Virus record (IMG/VR): IMGVR_UViG_3300031707_004129
Location: 1-31,430 of that record
Strand: one strand, 5' to 3'
DNA length: 31,430 nucleotides
DNA from: a virus
Position numbers and translations under genes: made by a program. The stretch's first letter is position 1. Each line of letters starts with the position of its first letter. The notes beneath the pieces were generated by a model. It did no database searches. It saw nothing but the letters and a program-made list of their open reading frames with translations, and was not told where the DNA came from. Below, one piece after another: positions 3 to 10,416 of this stretch.

Positions 3-326
3 GATGGGCGCGTGATCCTCTGCGAGCGCGGGATCCGGACGTTCGAGACCGCCTACCGCAACGTCCTGGACGTCAACGCCATCGCCTACCTGCACGCGAC
101 CGCTCCCTTCCCCGTCATCGCCGACCCGAGCCACGCCACCGGGGCGGCCGGCCTCGTCCCGCCCGTGGCGCTCGCCGCGGTCGCCGCCGGCGCCGACGGC
201 CTCATCATCGAGGTCCACGACGACCCGAGCTCGGCGCTCTCGGACGGGGAGCAGAGCATCACGCCGGCCGGCCTGTGCGCCCTCCTGGACTCCTGTCGAC
301 GGGTCCGTGACCTATGGCAGGGATAA
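3..326 (+). CDS. aroF: 3-deoxy-7-phosphoheptulonate (DAHP) synthase, C-terminal part (5' end outside window)
   Basis: DAHP synthase condenses phosphoenolpyruvate with erythrose-4-phosphate in the first step of the shikimate pathway to chorismate and prephenate. The frame is open from base 3, so the gene begins upstream; the GTG at 12 is only an internal codon. About 107 C-terminal residues are visible. They carry family hallmarks in order: LCERGIRTFE, then DPSHATG with the metal-binding His, then IIEVH and ALSDGEQ, which supply the Glu and Asp metal ligands of the type I-beta (TIGR01361-like) enzymes. KDO8P synthase lacks this exact set. The stop overlaps the next gene by 13 bases, which suggests it belongs to the phage operon rather than to a flanking chromosome. 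Family assignment is strong. Whether the enzyme is complete and feedback-insensitive cannot be seen. Confidence 0.9.
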   Translation, partial: DGRVILCERGIRTFETAYRNVLDVNAIAYLHATAPFPVIADPSHATGAAGLVPPVALAAVAAGADGLIIEVHDDPSSALSDGEQSITPAGLCALLDSCRRVRDLWQG

Positions 327-517
327 TCCGCCGCGGCCGCGTCGTCCGAGCCGACCTCGGGGGCGGCGCCTTCGTCCTGTTCGTCGACCTCCCGGACCGC
401 CTCTCTCCGGAGACGCGGGGGGCCCTCAACAAGCTCGTCCTCACCGTCCGGGCGGCCATCACCGCCGAGAAGGAGGAGACCGATGCCGGCAAGTCTACCT
501 GTCCAACGAACCCTTGA
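314..517 (+). CDS. small protein of unknown function
   Basis: This 67-residue protein starts with ATG inside the last codons of the DAHP synthase gene and ends inside the next gene, so it is translationally packed between the two. The first half is basic and hydrophobic (IIRRGRVVRADL, AFVLFVDLP) and looks like a small beta-structured unit; the second half is a predicted helix. I recognise no family. The strong overlaps at both ends support it being real, but a shadow frame cannot be excluded. Confidence 0.55.
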   Translation: MAGIIRRGRVVRADLGGGAFVLFVDLPDRLSPETRGALNKLVLTVRAAITAEKEETDAGKSTCPTNP

Positions 518-995
518 GGCGCTCCGGAAGGAAGGCTGGACCGCCGACGTCGCGGAGAAGTGGATCGCCATCCCCGGCCCGAACCGCTGCAGTGCTTGTG
601 GACAAGCCCGACCTCGTCCCGGGATGCCGCCCGGGATCCACCGGGACCTTCACGGGTTCGTCGACGTCGACGCCTTCTGCCCGGGCAAGGGGAAACTCTA
701 CGTCCAGGCCTCCAGATCCGCCGACATCGCCGCGCACGTCGACAAGCTCCGGAGCCCCGAGATCTCCCCAAAGATCGTCGACGCCCTCCGCTCCGGCGTC
801 CGCGTCGAGATCCACGGCTGGAGCCAGAAGGGCCCGCGCGGCAAGCGCAAGCTCTGGACCCGCCGGCGGATCGTCTTCGGCTTCCGACACGTCATGGACC
901 ACGGATCCGTGGAGGCGGAAGCTCTGCTCGGCCCCCTCCCTCCAGCGACCGAGCGCTTCGAGCTTGTCTACATGGAGATAGAGGGAGAACCGTGA
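483..995 (+). CDS. putative restriction-fold nuclease-like phage protein
   Basis: The 170-residue protein begins at ATG 483 behind a good ribosome site (GGAGGA, about 471-476). The N-terminus is a helix (RTLEALRKEGW). A CSACGQ segment could bind metal together with a later Cys. The core resembles small mobile-element proteins whose pattern is D-L-x-G-F-x-D, then a strand giving the V-Q-A-S segment, then an RVEIHGW...KLWTRRR tail. That pattern recalls PD-(D/E)XK-type folds with degenerate catalytic residues, but I cannot confirm an active site. A nuclease or DNA-binding role is a guess from this similarity. Position between the DAHP synthase gene and the tRNA gives no further clue. Confidence 0.6.
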   Translation: MPASLPVQRTLEALRKEGWTADVAEKWIAIPGPNRCSACGQARPRPGMPPGIHRDLHGFVDVDAFCPGKGKLYVQASRSADIAAHVDKLRSPEISPKIVDALRSGVRVEIHGWSQKGPRGKRKLWTRRRIVFGFRHVMDHGSVEAEALLGPLPPATERFELVYMEIEGEP

Positions 996-1004
996 TCCCT
1001 CACG

Positions 1005-1083
1005 GACGGCGTAGCTCAACGGGAGAGCGCCCCGCTCAAGCCAATGGGCGGGGAGGTAGTCGGTTCGACTCCGGCCGCCGTCC
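1005..1083 (+). tRNA. tRNA-like gene with an expanded anticodon arm
   Basis: The cloverleaf is canonical except for one arm. Acceptor stem 1005-1011 pairs with 1076-1082 over 7 bp, followed by T8 and A9. The D stem is GCTC/GAGC (1014-1017 with 1025-1028) with loop AACGGGA. The variable loop is 5 nt, the T stem is 1059-1063 with 1071-1075, and the T loop is TTCGACT. The anticodon arm (1030-1053) is 24 nt instead of 17. It folds either as 8 bp (one G-T pair) with loop AAGCCAAT, or as CCCCG/CGGGG with a 14-nt loop containing CTCAAGC, which would read as a CAA anticodon plus 7 extra bases. No CCA is encoded, and G1004 could pair with C1083. The amino acid cannot be assigned. Confidence 0.75.
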
Positions 1084-1166: not shown

Positions 1167-1742
1167 ATGGCGAGGCGGAGTCCGGAACCGCTTGAGCGCT
1201 CGCCCGCTCTCCGCCCCGTAGCTCTGGACCTCTCCAGCATCCGCTTCCTCCCCTACAACCCGAACCGGATGACCTCGGTCCAACTGGACGGGCTCCAGGC
1301 GTCCATCGCCGCCTACAAGTTCCTCGAACCCGTCGTCGTGAACCGCCGCGCGGACGGCTGGCCGAAGGCGGAGCGCGGCCTCTACGTCGTCGGCGGAGAA
1401 CACCGGGTCCGGGCCCTGCGCCGGCTCAAGCAGCGGCGCGTCCCCGCGGTAGTCGTCAGCGTGAACCCGCGCGCCGAGAAGGAGATCCACCTCGCGCTCA
1501 ACAACCGCGGCGCGATGGATCCCGCGTTCCTCGGCCGCGTCCTGGACGACTTGCAGAAGGCCGAGGCCAACCTCGCCGCCACCGGCTACCAGAAGGCGGA
1601 GGTCGAGGCCCTCATCGCGAAGGCGCTCGCGGAGATCAAGGCGCCGGCGGACTTCCCGTCCGTCGACAACCTGGAGGCGACGCATCAGTGTCCCAAGTGC
1701 GGCTACGAGTGGAAGGGCGCCTGCCGGCCGCGGAAGTCCTGA
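1167..1742 (+). CDS. ParB/Srx-fold protein with C-terminal zinc-ribbon-like tail
   Basis: 191 residues. The N-terminal ParB/sulfiredoxin-type domain shows the usual order: IRFLPYNPNR, LDGLQASIAAY, PVVVNRR, then the box GGEHR (residues 76-80) followed by VRALRRL and VPAVVV. The tail has HQCPKCGYEWKGAC, a probable metal-binding knuckle. This fold includes CTP-using DNA-binding ParB proteins and nucleotide-using kinases. In phages, single ParB domains often sit beside DNA methyltransferases. It is the first gene of a packed cluster and overlaps the methyltransferase frame by up to 55 bases. It could guide or regulate the modification enzymes, or act as a nucleotide-dependent enzyme itself; the sequence does not decide. 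There is no clear ribosome site at ATG 1167 beyond a GGCGGGG run. Confidence 0.8.
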   Translation: MARRSPEPLERSPALRPVALDLSSIRFLPYNPNRMTSVQLDGLQASIAAYKFLEPVVVNRRADGWPKAERGLYVVGGEHRVRALRRLKQRRVPAVVVSVNPRAEKEIHLALNNRGAMDPAFLGRVLDDLQKAEANLAATGYQKAEVEALIAKALAEIKAPADFPSVDNLEATHQCPKCGYEWKGACRPRKS

Positions 1743-2917
1743 CCGCGAAGCCCCCGTTCCGGCTCCCGACGATGAAGGAGATCCGCGCCGTCCCCTGGAA
1801 CGGGTTCAACGTCGTCTCGCTGTTCTCAGGCGCCGGCGGCTCCTGCCTCGGGTTCCGGATGGCCGGCTTTCGTACCGTGTGGGCGAACGAGTTCATCCCC
1901 GCCGCCGCCGAGACCTACCGCGCGAACTTCCCGCCTCCCCTTCCCGTCCTCTGCACTCAGGACCTCCGCGCGGTCACGCCCGAGCAGGTCCTCCAGGAGG
2001 TTCGAGACGCGGCGGGGAAGGAGGCGGAGGTCGACGTCCTGGAGGGCTCGCCGCCCTGCGCCAGCTTCTCGACCGTGGGGAAGACGAGCAAGCACTGGGG
2101 ACAGGTCCGGCAATACTCCGAGACGAAGCAGCGCGTCGACGACCTTTTCGGGGAGTACGTCCGGATCGTCCGCGGCGTCCGGCCCCGGGCGTTCGTGGCG
2201 GAGAACGTCTCGGGCCTCGCCCGCGGCGTCTCGGTCGGGATGATGAAGGAGATCCTCCTCGCTCTCCAGGCGTGCGGCTACCGCGTCGGGGCTCGGCTCC
2301 TGGACGCTCAATGGCTCGGTGTCCCACAGGTCCGCGTCCGGGTCATACTCGTCGGCGTCCGCGATGACCTGGAGCGAGAGCCGGCGTTCCCGAAGCCCCT
2401 CCCGTACCGCTACTCGATACGAGACGCGCTCCCGCACGTGACCCGCGTCGTGCACGACACCTCGGGGAGCAGAGGAGCGGGAGACGTGACGGACCGCCCC
2501 TGCCCGACCGTGACCGTCTGCGTCGACTCGCTCGCCTCCTACCACTTCCGCGTCGAGTGTTGGGGAGACGCGTCCTTCGAGAAGAACGCCATCGCGAAGG
2601 AGTGGGAGCGACTCAAGCCCGGTCAACAGTCGGACCGCTACTTCTCCCTCGTCCGCCCGGATCCGGACCTGCCCTGCCCGACTGTTACTCAGACCGCAGG
2701 TATCCGGAGCGCAGCCGGCGTGACGCATCCCAACGAGCCGAGGAAGTTCTACCCGTGGGAGCTTCGCCGGATCTGCGGGTTCCCCGAGGACTTCGTCTTG
2801 ACCGGGGACTTCCGGCAACAGTGGGAGCGGCTCAGCCGCGCCGTCCCGCCCCCGATGATGTACCACGTCGCGCGCGTCCTCCGGGACGAAATCCTCGAGC
2901 CCTCATGTGCGGCATAG
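1688..2917 (+). CDS. cytosine-C5 DNA methyltransferase family, altered motif X (candidate DNA carboxymethyltransferase)
   Basis: 409 residues from GTG 1688, which has GGAGG 10 bases upstream but overlaps the ParB gene; ATG 1772 is a non-overlapping alternative that keeps every motif. Motif I is FSGAGG (46-51). The catalytic PC motif IV has Cys124 in GSPPCASFS. Motif VI is ENV (172-174), motif VIII is QVRVR (214-218), and motif IX reads ELRRICGFPEDF. The target-recognition region lies between VIII and IX. Motif X normally reads Q-I-G-N-A-V-P-P around the SAM pocket; here it is RLSRAVPP, so Gly becomes Ser383 and the conserved Asn becomes Arg384 (codon CGC at 2837). A basic residue at this place is what an engineered variant (M.MpeI N374K) uses to accept carboxy-SAM. 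The family is certain; the carboxymethyl role is inferred from this residue plus the CmoA-like neighbour. Confidence 0.93.
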   Translation: MSQVRLRVEGRLPAAEVLTAKPPFRLPTMKEIRAVPWNGFNVVSLFSGAGGSCLGFRMAGFRTVWANEFIPAAAETYRANFPPPLPVLCTQDLRAVTPEQVLQEVRDAAGKEAEVDVLEGSPPCASFSTVGKTSKHWGQVRQYSETKQRVDDLFGEYVRIVRGVRPRAFVAENVSGLARGVSVGMMKEILLALQACGYRVGARLLDAQWLGVPQVRVRVILVGVRDDLEREPAFPKPLPYRYSIRDALPHVTRVVHDTSGSRGAGDVTDRPCPTVTVCVDSLASYHFRVECWGDASFEKNAIAKEWERLKPGQQSDRYFSLVRPDPDLPCPTVTQTAGIRSAAGVTHPNEPRKFYPWELRRICGFPEDFVLTGDFRQQWERLSRAVPPPMMYHVARVLRDEILEPSCAA

Positions 2918-4296
2918 TCGGGACGAGCGGACGCGAGGAGCCGGCGGTCCGGAGGGCGCTCTCCTGCTCTCGCCACCGCGGGCCCGACTTCCAAGACGCC
3001 GTCCAGGCCGGCGGGTTCACGCTCGGTCACGCGCGGCTCTCCATCGTCGACCCGTCTCCCGCCTCGCATCAACCGTTCCGCGCCGGCGGGACGACCGTCT
3101 CCTACAACGGCGAACTCTGGAACTACAAGGCGCTCCGCTCGGAGCTTCGGAAGAAGGGCCGGAGGTTCTCGACGTCCGGGGACACGGAGGTCGTCACCGT
3201 CGCGCTGGACGAGTGGGGCGTGTACGCCCTGGAGCGCTTCGAGGGAATGTTCGCCGTGGCCTGGACGGACGGCGAGACGCTCTGGCTGGCGCGGGACCGC
3301 TTCGGAGAGGTCCCGCTCCACTTCTCCGCGGTCTCCGGGATCGCCTTCGCCTCCGAGGTCAAGGTCCTGGCAGCGCTCGGCGGGGAACACGTTCCGGCGG
3401 CCTGTTGGGTTCCTCCTGGCTGCTTCGTCCGCTGGAGCCCTGGCTCCGGCCTCTCCATCGGCTCGTACTATCGGCTCATCCCCGCTCCGGCTCCAGAGGA
3501 CCCCGCCGCGGTCATGTTGCAGCGCCTCCGGGCCTCGGTCCAGGAGCGGACGCTCTCGGACGTCCCGGTCTGCACCCTGCTCTCGGGAGGGGTGGACTCG
3601 TCCATCGTCGCCGCCCTGCTCAAGCCCCACTTCCCGAAGCTCGTCTGCTACACGGCCGTCATGGACCCGGACTCCCCGGACCTCGCGGCCGCGCGCTCCG
3701 TCGCCGCCTACCTGGACCTCGAACTCCGGGAGGTCCTCGTGCCGCCGCCCTCCCAAGACGGGCTCGCGGAGGTCGTCCGCTGCATCGAGCTTCCGCGGAA
3801 GGCGCAGGTCGAAATCGGGTGGGCCTGTCTCCACCTCGCCCGGGCGATGAAGCGGGACGGGTTCAAGGTCACGTTCTCCGGGGAGGGCGCGGACGAACTG
3901 TTCGCCTCGTACGGGTTCTCCTTCCACGGCGTCCGCTCCGCCGGCTGGACGGAGTACCGTCGGGAGCTTTTCCTCTCCCAACACCGGAGCAACTTCGCGC
4001 GCTGCAACAAGATCTTCATGGCGCACAGCGTGGAGTGCCGGCTCCCGTTCCTCAACACGGCTCTCGTCGAGGCGGTCCTCGGGTTCCCGAAGGAGGCCTG
4101 CTGGCAGAAGTCGCACCGCAAGGTCCCGCTCCAGGAGGCGGCCGAGTCCCTCCTTCCGCGCGGGATCTGCTGGAGGACGAAACTCGCTTTCCAAGACGGG
4201 CTCGGCTTGAAGTCCGAGGCGGAGCGTGTCACGCTCGGGGCGCAGCGATTCTACGCGGCCGCGTTCCGGCTGGCGTACGGCTCCGCGAGGATGTAG
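2905..4296 (+). CDS. asnB: asparagine-synthetase-B-like glutamine amidotransferase
   Basis: 463 residues from ATG 2905, a start that places the N-terminal nucleophile at Cys2 and overlaps the methyltransferase stop by 13 bases. The class II glutaminase domain shows MCGIVG, RHRGPD, SYNGELWNY and SGDTEV. The synthetase domain has the ATP-pyrophosphatase loop SGGVDS (227-232) and SGEGADELFASY, then MAHSVECRLPFLN near the C-terminus. Both active sites look intact; the protein is shorter than E. coli AsnB (about 554). Known family chemistry adenylates a carboxylate and attacks it with ammonia from glutamine. Here the acceptor may not be aspartate: sitting between a C5-methyltransferase and a CmoA homologue, it could amidate a carboxymethylated base. 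Simple asparagine supply for the infected cell is the plain alternative. Confidence 0.92.
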   Translation: MCGIVGTSGREEPAVRRALSCSRHRGPDFQDAVQAGGFTLGHARLSIVDPSPASHQPFRAGGTTVSYNGELWNYKALRSELRKKGRRFSTSGDTEVVTVALDEWGVYALERFEGMFAVAWTDGETLWLARDRFGEVPLHFSAVSGIAFASEVKVLAALGGEHVPAACWVPPGCFVRWSPGSGLSIGSYYRLIPAPAPEDPAAVMLQRLRASVQERTLSDVPVCTLLSGGVDSSIVAALLKPHFPKLVCYTAVMDPDSPDLAAARSVAAYLDLELREVLVPPPSQDGLAEVVRCIELPRKAQVEIGWACLHLARAMKRDGFKVTFSGEGADELFASYGFSFHGVRSAGWTEYRRELFLSQHRSNFARCNKIFMAHSVECRLPFLNTALVEAVLGFPKEACWQKSHRKVPLQEAAESLLPRGICWRTKLAFQDGLGLKSEAERVTLGAQRFYAAAFRLAYGSARM

Positions 4297-4307
4297 GAGG
4301 AGGACCG

Positions 4308-5126
4308 ATGGCGATGGCGCGCTTTAGACACCTGCTCGGGTTCTACACGCCGTTCGGGGAGACCTGCCCGGACGCGCGCTGCTCATGCCACAGGACGGCG
4401 GCGCCGCTGGATCAGGTCGCGATAGACCGCACCGTCCCCGCCGGGAAGTGGGAGTTCGACGCCGACGTCGCGGACGTCTTCGACGACATGCTCCGCCGCT
4501 CCATCCCGCAGTACGAGGTGATGCGGGACTCCGTCTTCCGCGTCGGCGCGGCCTTCATCAAGCCGGCCTCCGTCGTGGCGGACCTCGGCTGCTCCCGGGG
4601 AGAATCGCTCGCTCCGTTCGTCCGCGCGTTCGGCGCGCTCTGCCGCTTCGTGGCCGTAGACGCTTCGGAGCCGATGGTCCAGGCGGCGAAGGAGCGCTTC
4701 AAGGGTTATCCCGAGAACGTCGTGGACGTCCGGCTCCTGGACCTGCGCAAGGACTTCCCTCCGATCGACGGGGCGTCCGTCGTCCTCTCGGTCCTGACGC
4801 TCCAGTTCGTCCCCATCGAGTACCGCACCGCCATCCTCGGGAAGGCCTGCCGAGCGCTGGTCCCTGGAGGCGCGATGATAGTCGTCGAGAAGCTCGCCTC
4901 TCCGACGCCGTCCGTGGACGTCCTGCTCCGCGAGATCTACCTCCAACTCAAGCGCGACAACGCGTACTCGGAGGAGCAGATAGAGCGGAAGCGCCTCTCC
5001 CTGGAGGGAGTCCTCGTCCCGCTCACCGCGGAGGAGAACGAGGGCCGGCTCCGCGCGGCCGGGTTCCGGGAGGTCGAGTGCTTCTGGCGATGGATGAACT
5101 TCGGCGCGTTCGTCGCCGTGAAGTGA
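4308..5126 (+). CDS. cmoA: CmoA-like carboxy-S-adenosylmethionine synthase
   Basis: 272 residues from ATG 4308, with GGAGGAGG directly after the AsnB stop. Similarity to CmoA runs almost end to end: WEFDADVADVFDDM, RSIPQY (64-69), DLGCSRG (92-98), VDASEPM, LTLQFVP, LVPGGAMIVVEK, KRDNAYSEEQIERKR (215-229) and NFGAFVAVK at the C-terminus. CmoA converts SAM plus prephenate to carboxy-SAM and phenylpyruvate. An N-terminal extension of about 35 residues with CPDARCSCH is unusual (E. coli CmoA has 247 residues). CmoB, the usual user of carboxy-SAM on tRNA, is not in the window, while a C5-methyltransferase with a basic motif X is two genes upstream. Ordinary methyltransferase activity cannot be excluded by reading alone. 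Confidence 0.88.
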   Translation: MAMARFRHLLGFYTPFGETCPDARCSCHRTAAPLDQVAIDRTVPAGKWEFDADVADVFDDMLRRSIPQYEVMRDSVFRVGAAFIKPASVVADLGCSRGESLAPFVRAFGALCRFVAVDASEPMVQAAKERFKGYPENVVDVRLLDLRKDFPPIDGASVVLSVLTLQFVPIEYRTAILGKACRALVPGGAMIVVEKLASPTPSVDVLLREIYLQLKRDNAYSEEQIERKRLSLEGVLVPLTAEENEGRLRAAGFREVECFWRWMNFGAFVAVK

Positions 5127-6825: not shown

Positions 6826-9117
6826 GTGGCAGAAGACATCCTAGTCGGCCGGACGCGGGTCGTTACCGCCGACGGCTCCGTCCCGATCCTTTACGACGCG
6901 CAGGGCCACGTGATCCGCGCCACGCCCGAACAGCAGGCGATCTTCAACGCGCGCGTCCCGGGCCCTGGGATCCCTCTCACGCCGGCGGAGGTCCGCGGGG
7001 AGGAGCCCCGCGCGTACTTCCCGACGGTCGGCTACAACCTCAACTACGTGCCGCGATCCGAGTTCCCGTGGATGACGCCGTTCGAGCAGCTTCGGAACCT
7101 CGCGGCCTCCTCCTGGATCGTCTCGACCGCCGTCGAGGACGTGAAGCAGCAGGTCCTCGGGATGGAGTGGGACATACACTCCGTCGACGCGAAGGCGGCG
7201 AAGCGCCTCCAGGAACCGATCGCGCGCGTCAAGAAGTTCTTCAAGAGCCCGGACCGGATCCACAGCTTCCGCTCGTGGTGCGCGCGCCTCCTGGACGACG
7301 CGCTGATCTGCGACGCCCTCACGATCTACCGGCAGCGAACCGTCCTCGGGGAGCCGTACGCGCTCAAGCCCATCAACGGCGCGACGATAAAGCCCATCGT
7401 CGACGCGTTCGGGACGCCGCCCGAGCCCCCGGAGACCGCCTATCAGCAGATCGGTTACGGCCGCGTCGAGACGGAGTTCCACCGTCCGTACTACTCCAGG
7501 GAGGAACTGGATGAGGCCATCCGCGCGAGCAGGACGGAGCCGGCGCGACGGCCGGTCGAGCTTGTCTACGCTCCGAGGACGACGAGGACCTACACGCCGT
7601 ACGGTCAAGGGCCCGTCGAGCGCGTGATAATCCTCCTCAACGTCGCCCTCCGCCGAGACGTCTTCTATCTCGCGTACTACACCGAGGGCAACATCCCGGA
7701 GGCGTTCTGGAAGTGTCCCGAGAACTTCACGCCGGCGCAGATCATCGACATGCAAGAGAAGTTCGAGAAGCTCCTCGCGGGAGAGGTCGGGGCGCGGCGC
7801 AAGCTCCGGTTCATGGCCGGAGGTCCGGGCGCCGGCCTGGAGAACCCGCGCGGACACGACACCTGGAGCAAGGACTTCGACGAGTACCTCGCCCGCGGCG
7901 TCTGCTACGCCTTCAACACGTCCCCGCTCCCGCTGGTCCAACTGATGAACCGCGCCACCGGGCAGATGGCGGACGCGGAGGAGAGCCACTCCGGCCTGCA
8001 CCCGATCCGGGAGTTCCTGCGCGAGATCTTCACGCGGGAGATCCACGAGTTCCTCGGGGAGGAGGAGCTTGAGTTCATCTGGACCGAGGACAAGGAGGCG
8101 GACGAACGCCTGGAGATGGAGCGCGCCGTCGCGTACGTCGACCGCGCGATCTACTCCATCGACGAGGTCCGCGCGAAGCGCGGGGAGGAGCCGACCGGGA
8201 TCCCGCGTTACTGGATGACGCCGAGCGGGCCCTTGTTCGTGGACGACGTCCTCGCGGACCGCAACCGCGTCCCCGTGAAACCGGCGAACCCTGGAGCCGC
8301 TCCCGCGCATCCGCTCGACGTTCCCCTTCCTCCGGCGGCCGGCGGTGGGTCGGCGCTCGGCCCCGCTGGAGGAGCCGGCGAGTCGTCTCCCGCCGCCGCC
8401 GCGGCGGAGGCCCTCGACGTCCCGCTCCCGCCTGCCGCGAAGCTCCGGCTCGTCGGCAAGGAGTTCGACCTGAGCCAAGCGCGCGACGAGTCGGGGATGT
8501 GGGAGGAGACCGGAGCCGGCGAGGAAGAAGCATCGGAGGGAGAGGAGGAGGGCGCTGAGGAAGAAGGCGGAGACGAGGACGAGGGAGAAGACGAGGCGGT
8601 CGAAGTCGAAGACGTTCAGTTCGACGACGAGGAGGTGGACCGGCTCGGACTGAAAGACAAGGACGTGATGAACGTCGGGGAGTGGATGGGAGGAGGGAGC
8701 GGCTTCGACAAGATGCGCAATCCCGCGACGACCGCCGGAGCGGCGATGCAGGAGACGCTCGACAAGCTGGAGCCGTACGAAGGCACCGCCTACCGCGGGA
8801 TGGTCGTTTACAAGGAGCAGGCGGACGAGCTAATGGCCTCGAAGGAGGTCACGTTGAACCGGAACTCCTCCGCGTCTCAGGACCTCGCCATCGCCCGCGG
8901 TTTCTCCGCGAGCGGCGTGAACCTCGGAGACAAGGTCCAGGTCCTGATCAAGGTCAACACGAAGTCCGCGGCCGACCTCACCGCCGTCGCCACCTACCTC
9001 GAAGAATCAGAGGTCGTGCTCCGCGCGGGGACGAAGTACGAGCAGCGCGTGGTAAAGTACGATGACAATAAAAAGCAGCTCTCCCTTGAGTGGACGGAGA
9101 AGGGGACCGATGAGTAA
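6826..9117 (+). CDS. portal protein with C-terminal ADP-ribosyltransferase-like domain
   Basis: 763 residues from GTG 6826, four bases after the terminase. Residues 1 to about 480 look like a portal: YNLNYVPRSEFPWMTPFEQLR, a long beta/alpha core, and FNTSPLPLVQLMNRATGQMADAEE, typical of portal C-cores. A Pro/Ala-rich linker holds two copies of LDVPLPPAA, followed by a very acidic stretch (about 563-605). The end, about 620-760, matches R-S-E mono-ADP-ribosyltransferases: YRGM with Arg657, NSSAS (680-684) as the S-T-S-like strand, and EESEVVL with Glu727-x-Glu729, plus VLIKVNTKSAADL. The portal forms the DNA gate of the head. The ART domain is presumably carried in the virion and may modify a host or phage protein on entry. 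A fusion of this kind is unusual on a portal. Confidence 0.85.
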   Translation: MAEDILVGRTRVVTADGSVPILYDAQGHVIRATPEQQAIFNARVPGPGIPLTPAEVRGEEPRAYFPTVGYNLNYVPRSEFPWMTPFEQLRNLAASSWIVSTAVEDVKQQVLGMEWDIHSVDAKAAKRLQEPIARVKKFFKSPDRIHSFRSWCARLLDDALICDALTIYRQRTVLGEPYALKPINGATIKPIVDAFGTPPEPPETAYQQIGYGRVETEFHRPYYSREELDEAIRASRTEPARRPVELVYAPRTTRTYTPYGQGPVERVIILLNVALRRDVFYLAYYTEGNIPEAFWKCPENFTPAQIIDMQEKFEKLLAGEVGARRKLRFMAGGPGAGLENPRGHDTWSKDFDEYLARGVCYAFNTSPLPLVQLMNRATGQMADAEESHSGLHPIREFLREIFTREIHEFLGEEELEFIWTEDKEADERLEMERAVAYVDRAIYSIDEVRAKRGEEPTGIPRYWMTPSGPLFVDDVLADRNRVPVKPANPGAAPAHPLDVPLPPAAGGGSALGPAGGAGESSPAAAAAEALDVPLPPAAKLRLVGKEFDLSQARDESGMWEETGAGEEEASEGEEEGAEEEGGDEDEGEDEAVEVEDVQFDDEEVDRLGLKDKDVMNVGEWMGGGSGFDKMRNPATTAGAAMQETLDKLEPYEGTAYRGMVVYKEQADELMASKEVTLNRNSSASQDLAIARGFSASGVNLGDKVQVLIKVNTKSAADLTAVATYLEESEVVLRAGTKYEQRVVKYDDNKKQLSLEWTEKGTDE

Positions 9118-10168
9118 AGCCGACGAGAAAGCCGGGTCGAAGAAGGTGAAGCCCGATCGGGCCCACAGGTTCGTCGACACGGACCTGGACGGCCTCACGC
9201 TCGGGAAGAAGAAGGCGCCGGAGAAGGAGAAGGCCGTCTCCGTCGACCTCCGGAAGTGGCGCAAGGTAGCTCTCAAGGCCGTCGCGTCCGGCCGGCCGCA
9301 GCGGGCCTTCAAGAGCAGCGTCATCCCTCCGGAGGTCCACGCGGCGCTCACGGAGTGGATGCCGACCGTCCTGTGCGCCGAGGACGTCGACTGGAGCTTC
9401 CGGGCCCTGGCGAAGGCGCGCCGTCCCGTGATCTCCGTCCGCCGCCGGCTCCGCCTGGAGCGCTCCTTCCGGGAGGTCCTCTCCTCCCACTTCGCGGAGC
9501 GGGCCCCGGACGCCGCGAAGGCCGCGGTCTCGGAGTTCAAGGCCCTGAGCAAGGCGGCCGAGGAGCCGGACGTCATCTCCGCCGCGCTCCGGTGGGACGT
9601 CCTCGTCGAGGACCTCACGCCCGAACTCGCGAAGGCCTTCCTCGAAGGGGAGGAGATCGCCGGGGACGCGCACGGCGTCTTCATCGACTTCGCTCTAACG
9701 GACGAGCAGGCGCAGGCGTACGCGAAGGAGCGCGCGGCGGAACTCGTCGGGAAACACGTCAACCCGGACGGGACCGTCGTCGAGGCGGTCGACAAGTCGT
9801 ACGCGATCTCGGAGACCGTCCGGGAGGACCTGCGCGCGACCATCACGAAGGCGCTGGAGCAAGGCTGGACGGAGGCGGAACTCCAGGAGGAGATCGAGGA
9901 CTCCGGCTTCTGGAACTGGCGCGCGGACCGGATAGCTCGGACTGAGGTCGCGGTAGCTCTCAACAAGGGGACCGCGGCGACGTACGGGGAGGCCGGCGTC
10001 TCCACCGTCACGATAATCGACGGGCACGGCTGCCTCGCGGACGGACACGACGACGCCGTCGCGGGCGTCGACGGGGAGATCTGGTCCCTGGAGAAGTTCA
10101 TCGAGTACCCGGTCGGGCACCCGAACTGCATCAGGGACGCCGTGGCGAACCTGCCGGAGGGCGCGTGA
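9110..10168 (+). CDS. MuF-like minor head protein (head morphogenesis)
   Basis: 352 residues from ATG 9110, which has GGAGAAGGGG just upstream and overlaps the portal stop by eight bases; upstream in-frame residues belong to the portal gene. The N-terminus is basic. The C-terminal part has the MuF pattern RADRIARTEVAVALNKGTAA, VSTVTIIDGHGC and ending YPVGHPNCIRDAV, as in Mu gpF and SPP1 gp7. These proteins bind the portal and can travel with DNA. The family also often carries toxin domains; here the enzyme-like domain sits on the portal instead. Family call is good. Confidence 0.82.
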   Translation: MSKADEKAGSKKVKPDRAHRFVDTDLDGLTLGKKKAPEKEKAVSVDLRKWRKVALKAVASGRPQRAFKSSVIPPEVHAALTEWMPTVLCAEDVDWSFRALAKARRPVISVRRRLRLERSFREVLSSHFAERAPDAAKAAVSEFKALSKAAEEPDVISAALRWDVLVEDLTPELAKAFLEGEEIAGDAHGVFIDFALTDEQAQAYAKERAAELVGKHVNPDGTVVEAVDKSYAISETVREDLRATITKALEQGWTEAELQEEIEDSGFWNWRADRIARTEVAVALNKGTAATYGEAGVSTVTIIDGHGCLADGHDDAVAGVDGEIWSLEKFIEYPVGHPNCIRDAVANLPEGA

Positions 10169-10416
10169 TCCTGGAGCCCGTGTTGACGCCGGAGCAGAAG
10201 AAGGAGCTTGAGGACCTCGCCTCCGAGGAGGAACTCCAGCGGGCCGTCGTCAACGTCATAGCGCTCCAGGTCAAGGCGCGCATCGCGAAGGGGAAGAAGT
10301 TCCAGGTCATCGGGGACTCGGTGAAGATGAGCGACCGGGAGTACGTCGTGCGGCCGGATGGAGCGCTCCAGAGGGCGGAGCCGACGCGCCGAGAGACGTT
10401 CACGAGGGAGAGGTAG
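10165..10416 (+). CDS. small charged protein of unknown function
   Basis: 83 residues, GTG start in a four-base overlap (GTGA) with the MuF-like gene, so translation is probably coupled. It contains a helical acidic first half (LTPEQKKELEDLASEEELQ) and a basic second half. No family recognised. Position suggests a head assembly accessory. Confidence 0.7.
   Translation: MILEPVLTPEQKKELEDLASEEELQRAVVNVIALQVKARIAKGKKFQVIGDSVKMSDREYVVRPDGALQRAEPTRRETFTRER

Follow-up and report, generated by a model that had tools for sequence, protein, structure and literature searches.

This locus raises the question of whether a phage homologue of DNA cytosine C5-methyltransferases adds a methyl group to DNA or a charged group in its place; namely, what it means that the protein has Arg at the position of motif X at which Asn is expected. 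The gene lies on a linear IMG/VR virus record of 31,430 bases (67% G+C), which is referred to here as the window. We conclude that it almost certainly encodes an enzyme that adds an acidic carboxymethyl group, not methyl, to cytosines of the phage DNA; the homology, the intact motifs, the synteny and the concordance of Arg with the carboxy-SAM synthase CmoA are directly observed. The plus strand of the left end carries, in order, the C terminus of a DAHP synthase, two small ORFs, a tRNA-like gene, a ParB-like gene, the C5-methyltransferase homologue, a glutaminase ligase and CmoA, and the terminase, portal and other structural genes come 3′ of CmoA. The features are as follows.

3–326, plus strand: class I (B. 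subtilis type) DAHP synthase, C-terminal third, truncated at the left contig end (PF00793, 2.7e-23)
314–517, plus strand: small ORF (ORF call) with a 13-base overlap with the DAHP synthase stop; no match in family searches
483–995, plus strand: ORF with one weak homologue (L025, 3205–3687; phmmer, 2.7e-10)
1005–1083, plus strand: tRNA-like gene (Rfam RF00005, 51 bits; gathering threshold 29)
1167–1742, plus strand: ParB-like protein (PF02195, 3e-06; ParB-like PHROG, 5.2e-22)
1688–2917, plus strand: predicted CmoX-type DNA cytosine C5-carboxymethyltransferase, 409-aa ORF (PF00145, 9.8e-51; best PDB match 8YF3)
2837–2839, plus strand: motif X Arg codon, CGC (R384/R356), equivalent to SpCmoX R350 and HhaI N304
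2905–4296, plus strand: predicted CmoY-type ATP-dependent amide ligase with an N-terminal glutaminase domain, 463 aa (PF00733, 2e-48; PF13522, 3.1e-32)
4308–5126, plus strand: predicted CmoA (carboxy-SAM synthase), 272 aa including an N-terminal extension (4GEK, 1.2e-36; TIGR00740, 7.1e-52; phrog_4752, 8.1e-70)

Several of the surrounding genes have features of their own. The ParB-like protein has a zinc-ribbon-like C-terminal end (CPKCGYEW), and a ParB-like gene beside CmoX recurs in relatives of the window CmoX; ParB neighbours were also pointed out in the original description of the family (PMC12783734). The anticodon arm of the tRNA-like gene has a 5-bp stem (CCCCG/CGGGG) around a 14-base loop, CTCAAGCCAATGGG, which is 7 bases over normal, and ARAGORN leaves the tRNA type undetermined and assigns it an anticodon of 4 bases. 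In a comparison with PHROGs, most of the right-hand ORFs were without an assigned function. The portal protein (6826–9114, plus strand) has 763 residues, of which the final ~150 (YRG ... SSAS ... ESEVVLRAG) resemble, as judged by eye, an ADP-ribosyltransferase-like domain.

Bases 2816–2854 translate to QQWERLSRAVPPP in the plus-strand frame of the 1688–2917 ORF, and the Arg codon within them specifies R384 of the full ORF, or R356 if counted from the ATG at 1772. The first-pass annotation had proposed that Arg384 replaces the motif X Asn, and both the codon and alignments to solved structures bear this out. Motif X has Asn in M.HaeIII, M.HhaI and DNMT1; in the phmmer alignment, ‘IGNAVP’ of M.HaeIII and ‘VGNAVPP’ of DNMT1 fall under ‘LSRAVPP’ of the window protein, and ‘GRMVPP’ of CmoX from Synechococcus phage S-B43 (SpCmoX) pairs R350 (8YF3) with the window Arg, which places it on the residue that contacts the cofactor carboxylate. 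Motifs I, IV, VI and VIII show no loss (FSGAGG begins at residue 18, GSPPC spans 92–96, ENV begins at 144 and QVRVR at 186), as had also been claimed, and decay of the gene is ruled out by the intact ORF and motifs. The Arg is not a chance occurrence, because R356 is invariant across a 26-sequence alignment and Arg occupies motif X in 121 of 140 subfamily members. A start at ATG 1772 would give 381 aa; the true start probably lies upstream, because the conserved ‘KPPYRVPTM’ of a relative occurs in the window as KPPFRLPTM. 8YF3 is the top PDB sequence match (E = 1.1e-47; runner-up, 2e-21), and it ranks first with both Foldseek and VIA-align when an AlphaFold2 model of the window protein (mean pLDDT of 82.9) is compared (VIA-align Z = 37.2, 308 residues, r.m.s.d. 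of 2.4 Å; runner-up, Z = 33.0).

SpCmoX was described by Yang et al. (Nat Commun, 7 December 2025; PMC12783734) as an enzyme that moves carboxymethyl from carboxy-SAM (Cx-SAM) onto cytosine C5 to give 5-carboxymethylcytosine (5cxmC). It takes only Cx-SAM and refuses SAM; Arg350, at the position of HhaI Asn304, touches the Cx-SAM carboxylate in crystal 8YF3; and R350N is inactive with either cofactor (PMC12783734). In S-B43, Cx-SAM comes from CmoA, CmoY joins glycine to the carboxylate, and the SpCmoX product was shown to give resistance to HhaI (PMC12783734). The sequence targeted in S-B43 is GC. The crystal and mutagenesis of R350 support the earlier suggestion that the window Arg binds the Cx-SAM carboxylate in the manner of the engineered M.MpeI N374K, in which replacement of the motif X Asn by a positively charged residue enables a C5-methyltransferase to use Cx-SAM (PMC12783734).

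The published family comprises 5,615 candidates picked by an SPPC motif and the motif X Arg (PMC12783734). Because the authors selected for Arg, their set allows no test of a link between Arg and CmoA, and the main text of their paper has none. We therefore gathered the subfamily with no rule on the motif X residue, seeded a second scan with Asn members and added loci collected by CmoA, which yielded 140 ORFs in which motif X could be read. CmoA is near 118 of the 121 Arg genes, leaving 3 without it, and near 0 of the 19 Asn genes, all 19 of which are without it (P = 1.1e-20, n = 140; Fisher test, relatedness ignored); the Asn count becomes 20 if the two pieces of the broken gene of L114 are tallied separately. 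Arg enzymes without a CmoA neighbour, which the first-pass annotation had held would speak against its reading if common, are the exception, and in two of the three (L065 and L129) the sequence stops ≤1.3 kb past the gene. The records of the Asn loci, some of which span 87.7, 46.3 and 30.7 kb, gave no match when searched in full with a CmoA profile; that search contained no positive record, and the same alignment detects CmoA in 190 loci. The records with Asn and no CmoA are L036, L052, L056, L066, L068, L075, L076, L098, L099, L102, L107, L108, L112, L113, L118, L125, L126, L130 and L136. A maximum-likelihood tree built with the motif X residue masked has five changes between Arg and Asn, all concordant with CmoA; well-supported branches force only one of them, so the Fisher P value overstates the independent evidence.

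These results bear on whether the gene could instead encode an ordinary SAM-dependent C5-methyltransferase in which the Arg is a neutral substitution. Every methyltransferase motif is intact, as it would be in such an enzyme, and the Asn-bearing, CmoA-less members of the subfamily probably are ordinary methyltransferases that use SAM. For the window protein we consider this very improbable, given that it has Arg where the motif X Asn is expected, that Arg follows CmoA almost perfectly (118, 3, 0, 19) and that SpCmoX, with the same Arg, accepts Cx-SAM only (PMC12783734); we rule it out on the concordance and the SpCmoX biochemistry together. A residue-level rule, that a motif X Arg marks a Cx-SAM enzyme, is confirmed from raw sequence, with the concordance with CmoA as an additional, independent test, and it lets the phage ‘cytosine methyltransferases’ of databases be sorted by cofactor.

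The best overall explanation, in which we have high confidence, is that the window encodes a phage CmoX that would use CmoA-made Cx-SAM to form 5cxmC, that CmoY probably converts this to an amide and that the modification probably protects against restriction. CmoA would combine SAM and prephenate into Cx-SAM. CmoX would flip the target cytosine out, the Cys of GSPPC would attack C6, and the motif X Arg would hold Cx-SAM as the carboxymethyl group goes to C5. The glutaminase-type CmoY would then probably adenylate the carboxylate and amidate it with glutamine-derived ammonia, giving 5-carbamoylmethylcytosine, and the modified DNA would probably be shielded from host restriction. What we infer for the window is that CmoX is active, what CmoY makes, which sequence is targeted and how the phage benefits.

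The window CmoA lies 1.4 kb downstream of CmoX. In an alignment with E. coli CmoA (4GEK), two residues are conserved: Arg199 (R229 in the window), which forms a salt bridge with the Cx-SAM carboxylate (PMC3663124), and Tyr39 (Y69 in the window). The CmoA of S-B43, which is active, aligns a Glu in the Arg199 column, and this Arg is thus not strict in phages. With TIGR00740 the window CmoA scores 176.5 bits, below the NCBI equivalog cut-off of 193.3. CmoA also occurs in other settings: no PF00145 C5-methyltransferase accompanies it in 41 of the 48 CmoA-bearing records searched (L006, L153–L230). One of these is the complete genome of Alcaligenes phage Afa-NA1 (L006; PV550095), which has CmoA and neither PF00145 nor PF00733, and in which a D12-class N6-adenine methyltransferase is 2.5 kb from CmoA. 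Phages of this kind may have another user of Cx-SAM.

What becomes of the carboxylate depends on CmoY. For another CmoY cluster, the members of which have a glutaminase domain, the authors predict the use of glutamine-derived ammonia (PMC12783734), and the window CmoY fits this type (the A0A7T0Q3R0 cluster) by its N-terminal Cys, fused domains and CmoX and CmoA neighbours. Like E. coli AsnB (1CT9), it has glutaminase and synthetase domains and the glutaminase catalytic residues, and it keeps the entire AsnB glutaminase site (Cys2, R, N-G-E and D). An NCBI model would call it an asparagine synthase (297 bits; cut-off, 267). Unlike AsnB, which has ‘VTTIRASTP’ in the acceptor-site region, it has ‘KAQVEIGWA’ there, the K and E of which are common to the four phage CmoY proteins aligned. 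The most likely product is 5-carbamoylmethylcytosine, because the whole glutaminase site is kept while the AsnB segment is replaced; in the literature that we found, this base has no demonstration in nature. It is unlikely that CmoX acts as proposed and CmoY instead ligates glycine or another amine, or that the carboxylate stays free. SpCmoY does ligate glycine (PMC12783734), and the glycine-type and glutaminase-type proteins aligned all share K299 and E303 (numbering of the window CmoY). However, a complete glutaminase site would be superfluous to a glycine ligase, and ammonia is the source that the authors predict for the glutaminase type.

DAHP synthase is the first enzyme of the shikimate pathway, an intermediate of which, prephenate, is the co-substrate of CmoA. 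The neighbouring DAHP synthase fragment thus bears on the origin of the prephenate, which the discoverers of CmoX named as an open question (PMC12783734); a DAHP synthase near the CmoX cluster is absent from their account. The contig contains only the 107 C-terminal residues of the enzyme; this fragment exceeds the Pfam cut-off, scores 146 bits as DAHP synthase and 51 as KDO8P synthase with NCBIfam models, matches 1vs1 and 1rzm in the PDB and keeps the motifs DPSH, EVH and SDG. A scan of viral contigs for DAHP synthase returned about a dozen. One of them, L234, is a 48-kb record with 25% G+C and no relation to the window. It carries CmoA (7753–8478), a C5-methyltransferase (~8500–9536) and a DAHP synthase ending at 10303, in a run that adjoins a DNA polymerase; motif X of its methyltransferase reads NRCSGVPS, neither Arg nor Asn, and the methyltransferase and DAHP synthase genes are each split by one frameshift in the contig. 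Because it was the methyltransferase that led to the choice of the window, L234 alone counts as independent evidence. From the published counts (PMC12783734) and the size of the collection we estimate that far fewer than 1% of viral contigs carry CmoA, and one CmoA contig in about a dozen is therefore unexpected, not overwhelming. DAHP synthase is ruled out as a general partner of CmoX: 93 other records with CmoA or CmoX have no PF00793 match, and no DAHP synthase was found in the flanks of other CmoA loci. The chorismate mutase profile CM_2 found nothing in the window.

There is an even chance that the fragment belongs to a phage sugar cassette (KDO-like or nonulosonic acid) or to host flank, with no relation to Cx-SAM. 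Most other phage DAHP synthases (L087–L095, L232, L233 and L235) adjoin sugar-nucleotide and glycosyltransferase-like genes (KdsB-like CMP-sugar synthetase and sialyltransferase-like, by eye), which suggests a phage sugar pathway with a DAHP-type aldolase, and this and the 93 records agree with such an origin, as does the truncation at the contig end. Against it, the fragment scores as DAHP and not KDO8P synthase, and L234 has CmoA, methyltransferase and DAHP synthase in succession with no recognisable sugar genes in the 12.7 kb covered. In a tree of the DAHP synthase fragments, which are too short for either the window or L234 to be placed, neither joined the main sugar-cassette clade. Host flank is not favoured: a bacterial genome scan gave no close copy (best, 65%), the next ORF overlaps the DAHP stop, and the homologue of ORF 483–995 in L025 sits upstream of ParB–CmoX in another phage locus; the truncation at the contig end prevents proof. 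In bacteria, the loci that surround the nearest DAHP synthases have no CmoA, CmoX or CmoY. These data suggest that some phages raise the output of the shikimate pathway to provide CmoA with prephenate, a link that is plausible but thin, because most of the phage DAHP synthases found lie in sugar cassettes. We tentatively propose, at somewhat below an even chance, that some DNA-carboxymethylating phages encode a DAHP synthase that would keep prephenate available to CmoA during infection, with 5-carbamoylmethylcytosine as the product in the window.

The window CmoX belongs to a published enzyme family, the mechanism of which is already described (PMC12783734). M.MpeI N374K likewise has a positive charge in place of the motif X Asn; unlike the window enzyme, it is man-made, uses Lys, has CG specificity and has no CmoA or ligase partner. 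SpCmoX is closer, with a C5-methyltransferase fold, SPPC, a motif X Arg and CmoA and CmoY in its cluster (33% identity over the alignment), but S-B43 has a short glycine-ligating CmoY, no ParB-like gene annotated beside CmoX and, unlike the window with its fragment, no DAHP synthase (PF00793) in its genome. The order ParB–CmoX–CmoY (glutaminase)–CmoA is found in gp122–gp125 of Streptomyces phage TurkishDelight (NC_073473), the CmoX of which is 58% identical to that of the window; this phage differs in having no DAHP synthase across its whole 93.6-kb record, and its cluster genes are annotated merely as methyltransferases and an amidotransferase. Beyond the literature on these systems, the window and its relatives add the concordance of Arg or Asn with CmoA, the probable product of a glutaminase-type CmoY and the DAHP synthase neighbour.
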